Assembly: GCF_010365785.1 (NCBI RefSeq)
Contig: NZ_CP048387.1
Coordinates: 558,001-622,000, forward strand
Origin: Spiroplasma sp. TIUS-1
GTDB taxonomy: Bacteria > Bacillota_I > Bacilli_A > Mycoplasmatales > Mycoplasmataceae
DNA: 64,000 nt
Direction: 5' to 3'
In this document: positions 9,225 to 12,298 of the stretch, piece after piece
Layout of the letters: every line of letters starts with the position of its first letter
How positions within the stretch are numbered: position 1 is the first letter of the stretch
Program-made: the position numbers and the translations under genes
Notes under the pieces: model-generated
Told to the model about the DNA's origin: nothing
The model's input: the letters and a program-made list of their open reading frames with translations, nothing else
Database searches by the model: none

Positions 9225-9250
9225 AAAATAATCTCAATTGAGATTATTTT
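9225..9250 (-). terminator. Rho-independent terminator overlapping the rpmA stop
   Basis: 26-bp perfect palindrome centred on CAATTG (AAAATAATCTCAA / TTGAGATTATTTT), followed by seven T on the minus strand. It contains the rpmA stop codon at 9244-9246. Confidence 0.85.
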
Positions 9251-9534
9251 GTTTCTTGAGGAACAACAATAGCTTTTGTTCTTCCTTTACCAAATTTTTG
9301 ATATTTAACAATTCCTGAAACTAGTGCAAATAGTGTATCATCCCCACCACGTCCTACGTTATCACCAGGGTGAATTTTTGTACCACGTTGTCTAAAGATA
9401 ATTGAACCTGCATTTGCAAATTCTCCATCTGCTTTTTTTGCACCCAATCTTTTTGATTCTGAGTCACGTCCATTTCTTGTAGACCCAACTCCTTTTTTAG
9501 AAGCAAAATACTGTAGCCCTAATAAAAATCTCAT
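9244..9534 (-). CDS. rpmA: 50S ribosomal protein L27 with cleavable N-terminal extension
   Basis: L27 (96 residues) reaches into the peptidyl-transferase centre with its N-terminus. Here the mature [15 protein letters not shown] sequence is preceded by [10 protein letters not shown], the Firmicute/mollicute-type extension that must be removed by the Prp cysteine protease at the LQYF-ASKKG junction. The body shows the usual [15 protein letters not shown] and [11 protein letters not shown] motifs. It lies 3 nt after prp and is the last gene of the rplU-prp-rpmA operon. Confidence 0.97.
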
Positions 9535-9537
9535 AAC

Positions 9538-9852
9538 TTATTCCTCCATTATTTTTAAATTCTTTGGATATTGAACTTCGATTGTTTGTAATTGAATTTT
9601 AATAAATAATAACATTCTCTGAAGTTCAAGGTCTTCTTTTTTTAATACTTTAATAATCATTTCATTATCTAAAACTTTTAAATTTACACTTTTGTCTGCT
9701 AATAATTCAAGAGCATTCAAGGCCCCAATCATTATTGCGGTTACTCCTGCACAAATCAAATCATTTCCAAATTTTCCTGCATTTGCATGACCTGTAACTG
9801 TAATTGATTCAATCACATTATTGTTACATTTCTTTATTAAAGTTTTAATCAT
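9538..9852 (-). CDS. prp: Ribosomal-processing cysteine protease Prp
   Basis: Prp (104 residues, YsxB family) removes the N-terminal extension of L27. The catalytic pair is visible: His22 in VTGHANAG and Cys34 in DLICAGVTA, the positions used in Staphylococcus aureus Prp. It sits between rplU and rpmA, its usual place. Only 1 nt separates it from the rplU stop, so translation is probably coupled. Confidence 0.95.
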   Translation of the reverse strand: MIKTLIKKCNNNVIESITVTGHANAGKFGNDLICAGVTAIMIGALNALELLADKSVNLKVLDNEMIIKVLKKEDLELQRMLLFIKIQLQTIEVQYPKNLKIMEE

Positions 9853-10453: not shown

Positions 10454-10545
10454 TTTATGTCCTCCGTTTATACTCGCCTTGCATGTGGGTTTAATCCTCT
10501 TGTGTACATGCTTAAAGTGCGGTTGAAACAAATCAACCTTTAAAT
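10454..10545 (-). promoter_or_regulatory. L21-type ribosomal protein leader RNA
   Basis: The 5' region of rplU forms two hairpins on the minus strand: GGTTGA/TCAACC (10538-10521) and GCATGT/ACATGC (10511-10481). These are followed by the conserved-looking stretch AAGGCGAGTATAAACGGAGG directly before the ATG, as in the L21 leader described upstream of rplU in low-GC Gram-positives. It is expected to mediate feedback by L21 or a partner protein. The assignment is from memory of the motif; a covariance search would settle it. Confidence 0.65.
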
Positions 10546-10580: not shown

Positions 10581-10856
10581 TTAAAAGAGCGGCGGCAAAT
10601 CGTGAGATACTTCTTGCTTAATTAATGCTTTATTTGATTGAGTATTATCATATTCCATTTTAGTTCCACCGATTGTAACAGAAACCTTATCTTCATTCTT
10701 ATGATTAGACATAAAAACAACTCCACTAATAGATCCAATTAAACTATTAATTGCTGTAAATGATGAAGTTATAATACTTGCAATACCGTTTAAAAAACTT
10801 CCAGTCATTGATCCACCATAAACTTTTTGTTTTTCCTTTATGTTCAATTTTTTCAT
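10581..10856 (-). CDS. Bacteriocin-like peptide with double-glycine leader
   Basis: This is a 91-residue peptide. Residues 1-15 (MKKLNIKEKQKVYGG) look like a class II bacteriocin double-glycine leader, normally cut after GG by a C39-peptidase ABC exporter. The remaining 76 residues begin with a Gly/Ser/Ile-rich hydrophobic stretch with GxxxG spacings, then a charged segment (NHKNEDK) and end in HDLPPLF. It has an excellent SD (GGGAGG) 9 nt before ATG 10854-10856, so it is surely translated. No immunity gene or C39 transporter is adjacent; rsmI lies upstream behind its own terminator and the rplU operon follows. Whether it is antimicrobial is unknown. Confidence 0.65.
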   Translation of the reverse strand: MKKLNIKEKQKVYGGSMTGSFLNGIASIITSSFTAINSLIGSISGVVFMSNHKNEDKVSVTIGGTKMEYDNTQSNKALIKQEVSHDLPPLF

Positions 10857-10885
10857 TTAAATTTCCTCCCTTATCTATAACGTCA

Positions 10886-10921
10886 AAAAAATGAAAAATA
10901 TTTTATTATTTTTCATTTTTT
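10886..10921 (-). terminator. Terminator at the 3' end of rsmI
   Basis: 15-bp inverted repeat (left arm 10886-10900, right arm 10907-10921) with a 6-nt loop and T-run on the minus strand. It overlaps the last codons of rsmI and separates it from the bacteriocin-like gene. Confidence 0.7.
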
Positions 10922-11787
10922 CATAAGTCATATAAATAATTTCTATCAACATCATAAATTGCAACTATTTCTTTAATAGCTTGAGTTGATTTAATTCCTT
11001 GATTTACAAGAAAATTAACTTTTACTAATAATTCTTTATCACTCAATTTTTTAGCTTGCTGATGTTTATTTGTTTTAAAAACAACACATACCTCTCCTTT
11101 GTCTACAAATTCACTTGAATTAATATATTCACTGACTTCATTTATAGATCCACGAATAATTTCTTCATTTATTTTTGTAAGCTCGCGAGCTACTGTAACT
11201 TTAGACTCAGGAAAGTGATTATTAATTATTTTAATTGTGTCTTTGATTCTATGTATTGATTCATAAAAGCAAATCAATCTTTCATTTGAGTTTCCCACAG
11301 CGTTTTTTAATTGATCAACTAGTTTAGTTTCTTTTTTATCCAAAAAGCCTACAAATATATATTCATAGAAATACTGTGATGATGCAATCAGAGTATGGTT
11401 AATTGCTGTAGAACCACCAATACATACAATGTTTACATTCATTTGTTTATCTCAAATAAGGTGCTCAATTAGCCTCATTCCAGGATCTGACATACCAGGG
11501 AGTCCAGCATCCGATATAATTGCAATATTGTTATTTGCATTTAGACTATTAGTAATAGTGTCAGAGAGACTTAGTTCATTAAACTTGTGCAGTGAAACTA
11601 AGTGCTTTTTAATTGAAAAATTATTTAAAAGTACTTTACTAGTTCTAGTATCTTCACAATAAATAGTTTCGACACTATTCAATATTTCGATTGATCTTTT
11701 AGACATATCACCTAAGTTTCCAATTGGTGTAGAAACAACATAAATAGTTGGTCAATTATTTTTGTATGATTTTTGAATATTTAACAT
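10906..11787 (-). CDS. rsmI: 16S rRNA 2'-O-ribose C1402 methyltransferase RsmI
   Basis: RsmI (293 residues) uses SAM to methylate the 2'-OH of C1402 in 16S rRNA. Tetrapyrrole-methylase-fold motifs are clear: STPIGNLGDMS near the start, YCEDTRTSKVLL, SDAGLPGMSDPG, then FYESIHRI and VARELTKINEE. Two TGA codons (near 11452 and 10921) are read as Trp; ignoring them splits the gene. GGAGG precedes ATG 11785-11787. It follows greA closely. Confidence 0.95.
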
Positions 11788-11798
11788 AATTCCTCCAA

Positions 11799-11823
11799 TA
11801 AAAAAAAAAAAAACCATAGGTTT
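11799..11823 (-). terminator. Short-stem terminator after greA
   Basis: 5-bp stem AAACC/GGTTT with a 3-nt loop followed by a run of more than ten T on the minus strand. The short stem makes it weak, so read-through into rsmI is likely. Confidence 0.45.
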
Positions 11824-12298
11824 ATTTTATAGATTTAATTTGAATTTCATATGGTTGTTGGATGTTCTTTATTTTTACAACATCTCCAACTTTTTTACCT
11901 AAAATTGCTTCTGCAATAGGTGACTCGTTTGAAATTTTATTAAGAAATGGATCTGCTTCAATTGGCCCTACAATATAAAATGTATAAGTTTTTTTATTTT
12001 TTTTGTTTAACAACTCAACTTCTGTTCCAACTGCAACAAGTTTTTCTTTTGATGTAGATTTTTTTTCATCAATAATTGAAGCTTTTCTAATTTGCGCTTC
12101 AAGTTCTTTAATTCTTGCTTCTACTTCTGCTTGTCTATTTCTAGCTGCATCATAATCAGCATTTTCACTTAAATCCCCTTGTGCTCTAGCTTCAACTAGT
12201 TCTTCGATTACTTTTGGTCTTACAACTGTAATTAAATTATCTAATTCAATTTCTAATTGTTTAAGACCTTCTTTGGTTAAGATTACTGCATTGTCCAT
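11822..12298 (-). CDS. greA: Transcription elongation factor GreA
   Basis: GreA (158 residues) enters the RNA polymerase secondary channel and stimulates cleavage of backtracked RNA. The N-terminal coiled coil carries the acidic tip motif GDLSENADYDAARN, and the C-terminal FKBP-like half ends with SPIAEAILGKKVGD and VKIKNIQQPYEIQI. A promoter candidate lies upstream (12325-12353). Confidence 0.96.
   Translation of the reverse strand: MDNAVILTKEGLKQLEIELDNLITVVRPKVIEELVEARAQGDLSENADYDAARNRQAEVEARIKELEAQIRKASIIDEKKSTSKEKLVAVGTEVELLNKKNKKTYTFYIVGPIEADPFLNKISNESPIAEAILGKKVGDVVKIKNIQQPYEIQIKSIK

Follow-up and report, generated by a model that had tools for sequence, protein, structure and literature searches.

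The window analysed here is a stretch of 64,000 nucleotides from Spiroplasma sp. TIUS-1, and the feature under study is a gene for a 91-amino-acid precursor peptide on its minus strand (10856 to 10581, with an ATG start). The open reading frame was confirmed as real, with orthologues in other genomes, and is preceded, 8 nucleotides upstream of the ATG, by the Shine-Dalgarno sequence GGGAGG (10865 to 10870, minus strand), in keeping with the ideal ribosome-binding site described in the first-pass annotation. Upstream lie rsmI (10906 to 11817, minus strand) and greA (11822 to 12298, minus strand), both conserved neighbours; the former was assigned by computed homology to RsmI loci, and its product is presumably the 16S rRNA C1402 2'-O-methyltransferase RsmI. 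The homologous RsmI loci included those of Mesoplasma seiffertii, M. photuris, M. lactucae and Williamsoniiplasma lucivorax, among others, and none from M. mycoides. The conserved downstream neighbour is rplU, encoding ribosomal protein L21 (9854 to 10453, minus strand), followed by prp (9538 to 9852) and rpmA (9244 to 9534). Between the peptide gene and rplU, a candidate L21 leader was detected (10460 to 10534, minus strand; Rfam RF00559, E = 5e-4), with a score of 30.3 bits that is below the gathering score of 36. The RplU encoded in the window carries a long C-terminal extension rich in Lys, Ala and Pro; many relatives have a short L21. Neither an immunity gene nor a C39 exporter adjoins the peptide gene, as had been stated at the outset: its neighbours are rsmI and rplU, and the exporter described below is encoded 61 kb away.

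The first 15 residues of the precursor, MKKLNIKEKQKVYGG (10812 to 10856, minus strand), form a double-glycine leader with predicted cleavage after G15. Leu at −12, Glu at −8, Val at −4 and Gly at −2 and −1 match the double-glycine leader pattern, and the segment has the features by which we recognized such leaders, namely a length of 15 to 25 residues, an end in GG, GA or AG and hydrophobic residues at −12 and −4. In the peptide alignment A1, G15 is invariant, and both the GG and the residues of the leader pattern rank among the best-conserved sites of the peptide. Residues 16 to 51 are Gly/Ser rich and hydrophobic (mean Kyte-Doolittle value, 1.04), which fits the pattern of a leader-like start and hydrophobic segment noticed in the first-pass annotation. 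Within them, residues 19 to 51 (10704 to 10802, minus strand) carry the conserved motif (S/T)G(A/S)(F/L)LxGI and were modelled by AlphaFold2, with low confidence, as one long hydrophobic helix. A conserved hydrophilic stretch around KVSVTIGGTKMEYD follows (10647 to 10688, minus strand; alignments A1 and A5), for which a beta hairpin is predicted at residues 57 to 70 (strands at 57 to 62 and 65 to 70, again with low confidence); the model of the precursor is poor overall, with a mean pLDDT of 55.7. The mature part is near-neutral (charge 0 in the core and −1 in the tail, about −1 overall) and has no Cys. A Pfam search with the peptide returned nothing significant, and no relative of it was found among solved structures. 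Members of the family do score on the bacteriocin-leader models TIGR01847 and TIGR03949. When the complete 811,521-bp genome was scanned strictly for a Shine-Dalgarno sequence and a double-glycine leader in a product of 40 to 150 amino acids, this gene was the only hit; a looser leader scan was run as well, and the genome-wide search for paralogous double-glycine peptides suggested at the outset found none besides this gene.

Conservation of the peptide gene among relatives

A profile search found the peptide in 51 of the 60 genomes of the window's family. The gene order uvrC-greA-rsmI-peptide-rplU-prp-rpmA is retained in most genera, the exceptions being genomes in which the peptide lies beside rplU, after greA (genus g8) or some kilobases from rplU. 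Values of dN/dS between related species (0.02 to 0.42) indicate that the peptide is conserved as a coding sequence under purifying selection. In genus g8, a second tandem peptide with a double-glycine leader directly follows the first, e.g., MQKLSIPATQNIKGGFFWMLIPL in G028; such second peptides are encoded at L281 893-1129 (minus strand), just below position 5804 of L266, at G008:C1:533301-533453 and at G065:C1:261466-261618.

Outside the family, peptides of family f7 have the leader, the helix and a K-G...W-D tail motif in common with the window peptide (profile-profile E = 2e-12), and MPN313-type peptides of family f3 (hhalign E = 4e-8) share with it the leader and the first helix. The MPN313 family (NF045747), known from Mycoplasmoides-type genomes that likewise carry a single-copy C39 exporter, has the same double-glycine leader and hydrophobic segment, but its tail differs, and the window peptide scores 20.7 bits against this model, short of the curated cut-off of 100. 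The MPN313-type locus differs also, adjoining an mraZ-like gene in the 580,076-bp genome. The NF045747 model states neither a function nor a link to an exporter, and in the open-access literature on MPN313, MPN571, MG390 and mollicute double-glycine peptides we found no connection between peptide and exporter.

The single C39 exporter and its fate alongside the peptide

A search of the genome for a C39-peptidase ABC transporter, proposed as a check in the first-pass annotation, returned exactly one Peptidase_C39 match above the cut-off; the genome is thus not one without C39, a circumstance that the annotation had named as speaking against a secreted bacteriocin-like peptide. The match belongs to a 675-amino-acid protein of C39-TMD-NBD architecture encoded outside the window (G000:C1:505809-507836, minus strand), which has the full domain set, including the ATPase motifs GKSGSGKT, FSKGQ and LYILDE. 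Its best library match is NCBIfam NF045998 (Mbov_0121 family peptidase domain-containing ABC transporter), at 308.5 bits and hence below the curated cut-off of 500, and among solved structures, ComA and 4ry2, an ABC-type bacteriocin transporter, come closest to it. The catalytic residues Cys14, His94 and Gln8 were conserved in 46 of 46 exporters (Asp110 in 45 of 46), and the exporter that shares a genome with the window peptide has them intact. C39 was found in 262 of the 298 genomes of the order.

The exporter gene is followed by a gene for a 136-amino-acid single-TM protein and then by ybeY, dgkA, era and recO, with glyS further along; ybeY also neighbours the exporter gene in the relatives inspected, among them the 580,076-bp genome. 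In many genera, the exporter gene and ybeY are separated by a gene for a single-TM protein of 112 to 136 amino acids (G000:C1:505448-505858 in L057; also L149, L256, L257, L259, L260, L261, L262 and L265) that could be an export accessory; the copy in the window's genome had no Pfam or NCBIfam match. Such a protein was considered as an obligate immunity protein and rejected, since the gene is missing from other genera that still carry the peptide. Upstream of the exporter (G000:C1:507944-511786, L057) are encoded a 791-amino-acid protein with an HESGH zinc-metallopeptidase-like motif and a 481-amino-acid protein, neither of which lies beside any other exporter listed.

Peptide and exporter genes were unlinked in every genome examined. 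Among the 60 family genomes, C39 was found in 50, and 49 carried both C39 and the peptide. The state of the peptide was compared between 44 genomes with a full-length exporter, counting as such any uninterrupted frame that has the C39 triad, even if its ATPase part is degenerate (or missing, in G023), and 14 genomes in which the exporter was broken or missing. G007 was set aside because its contigs end at both loci, and G021 was left out and rejected as a case of exporter without peptide because a 40-kb N mask covers the expected peptide position. With a full-length exporter gene, the cleavage site was GG (35 genomes) or AG (9 genomes) in 44 of 44. With the exporter dead or absent, the peptide was lost, frameshifted or mutated at the site in 10 of 14: it was gone from six genomes (G006, G032, G062, G063, G066 and G067), GG had become GV in G022 and EV in G031, and peptide and exporter were both frameshifted in G036. 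In the tenth, G061, the first copy was gone and the second tandem peptide read RG; the second tandem peptide of its sister G028, which has an intact exporter, keeps GG. The G036 peptide frameshift lies at a six-T run (L167 6467-6713) and could reflect decay, phase variation or a sequence error.

An intact GG peptide persisted despite a broken exporter in G009, G016, G064 and G080, where the exporter appears to have been damaged recently or may contain sequence errors. The possibility that the G009 exporter was intact was rejected, as it was resolved into frameshifted fragments. The association between exporter and peptide was significant across genomes (Fisher P = 2e-8), which are related and not independent and of which G016, G036 and G080 have frameshifts that could be sequence errors, and also when lineages were collapsed by hand, without a tree (P = 0.009). 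Several lineages agree on the co-decay, and the residues mutated are the cleavage residues. The co-decay indirectly supports cleavage and export of the peptide, and together with the co-occurrence it favours the earlier suggestion that a distant C39 transporter may export it; that GG is lost in genomes with a dead exporter speaks against the alternative offered beside it, that GG is not a cleavage site.

Exporters with a degenerate ATPase

The exporters of Mesoplasma- and Williamsoniiplasma-type genera (g2, g3, g4, g5 and g10) retain the C39 triad but have no recognizable Walker A or signature motif and no conserved Walker B; Pfam found no ABC_tran in those tested. The ABC_tran score of the exporter in G001, from the window's genus, is below the cut-off, and in G023 (M. 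photuris) the open frame, 388 amino acids long, extends no further than the membrane part. Exporter genes with an intact triad and a degenerate or absent ATPase are those of L253, L252, L255, L261, L260, L149, L358 and L360. Degenerate-ATPase exporters are under purifying selection, with dN/dS of 0.05 to 0.14 in C39 versus 0.17 to 0.27 in the NBD region. The motifs of the window genome's exporter make ATP-driven export plausible there; classical ATP-driven export cannot hold in the genera in which the ATPase is degenerate. Retention of the triad in Mesoplasma-type genera suggests that cutting may outweigh ATP-driven transport, and in such lineages it is possible that cutting occurs without ATP hydrolysis or that an ATPase partner acts in trans.

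The peptide as probable substrate of the exporter

The leader, the exporter with intact catalytic residues, and the co-occurrence and co-decay of the two are well supported, and because nearly all relatives with the peptide also have the exporter and the two tend to be lost together, the peptide looks like the cargo of a widespread mycoplasma exporter and not like an antibiotic. We put the probability that it is the dedicated substrate of the genome's single C39 exporter, encoded at an unlinked locus, at about 80%. How the peptide would be cleaved, exported, located and used we infer as follows. The 15 leader residues, as a helix, would be recognized by the cytosolic C39 domain, which would cleave the precursor behind Gly15, and a 76-residue mature peptide, made up of the hydrophobic helix and the hydrophilic hairpin and tail, would exit the cytoplasm and probably stay at the outer face of the membrane. 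There it may serve a housekeeping function on the producer's own surface instead of killing rivals; this role, which is suggested by its single copy, its vertical inheritance and its tie to ribosomal genes, has by itself slightly less than an even chance. A shade more tentatively still, peptide and C39 protein may form an order-wide core pathway of peptide maturation that minimal cells, too, would have kept. The protease would be its essential component: in several lineages the ATPase has degenerated or been lost while the C39 triad and the GG peptide persist, so that an ABC exporter would have become a leader protease anchored in the membrane.

The first-pass annotation had described the peptide as bacteriocin-like, and a true class II bacteriocin, exported to permeabilize the membranes of competitors, would account for the double-glycine leader, the Gly/Ser-rich hydrophobic segment and the match of some family members to class IIb bacteriocin leader models. 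We regard that role as very unlikely: the peptide is encoded by a single-copy core gene that is inherited vertically and, in many genera, keeps its place among the same housekeeping genes, and its presence in 51 of 60 family genomes is neither patchy nor strain-variable; rsmI and rplU flank it in place of an immunity gene, and the small membrane gene by the exporter is not an obligate immunity gene; the mature part is not cationic and lacks Cys; and selection on it is purifying, not diversifying. Equally improbable is that GG is no cleavage site and the product is a conserved protein of the cytoplasm or membrane, a case that the annotation had also foreseen. The hydrophobic helix could be a mere membrane anchor, the gene lies among translation genes and it is kept in some genomes with a broken exporter, but the GG and leader pattern, among its best-conserved positions, decay upon loss of the exporter, and the gene itself is co-lost with it.

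Unlikely as well, if less so, is a role within the producer's own population, in which the secreted peptide would cause self-lysis or serve as a signal. C39 exporters, such as ComA, the nearest solved one, mature signals too, and uses beyond the killing of rivals have precedents in the bacteriocin-like peptides that are reported to mediate autolysis in Neisseria (PMC11798529) and in HetC, a C39 exporter that is reported to drive cell differentiation in Nostoc (PMC10986499). Against such a role, the peptide gene has neither a receptor nor a regulator linked to it, and the peptide is larger than known pheromones. To our knowledge, two-component receptors are also generally absent from mollicutes.

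We return to the peptide as probable exporter substrate. The window peptide and its presumed exporter have the double-glycine leader and C39-TMD-NBD architecture known from PCAT1, ComA and other peptidase-containing ABC transporters for class II bacteriocins or pheromones. In systems of that type, the genes for peptide, immunity and export are usually clustered and differ from strain to strain, whereas the peptide described here is a single one, unlinked to its exporter and conserved order-wide. According to Breuer et al. 2019 (PMC6609329), the minimal cell JCVI-syn3A keeps protein 0401, a C39-domain exporter of the double-glycine type for which, as in other mycoplasmas, no double-glycine peptide candidate is known; the authors modelled it as an importer of lipoyl-peptides. 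The exporter of the window's genome is of the same C39-domain type as 0401 and NF045998, without reaching the cut-off of the latter, and the peptide family, known here from many relatives, would be a natural candidate for the missing 0401 substrate. C39 exporters are nearly universal in the order, and a double-glycine peptide that decays with them makes the question of the 0401-type substrate directly testable. The pairing, if true, would bring to light a secreted product that belongs to the core of the simplest cells known, and the pseudo-ATPase variants would bring something new to the picture of how C39 exporter proteins work.
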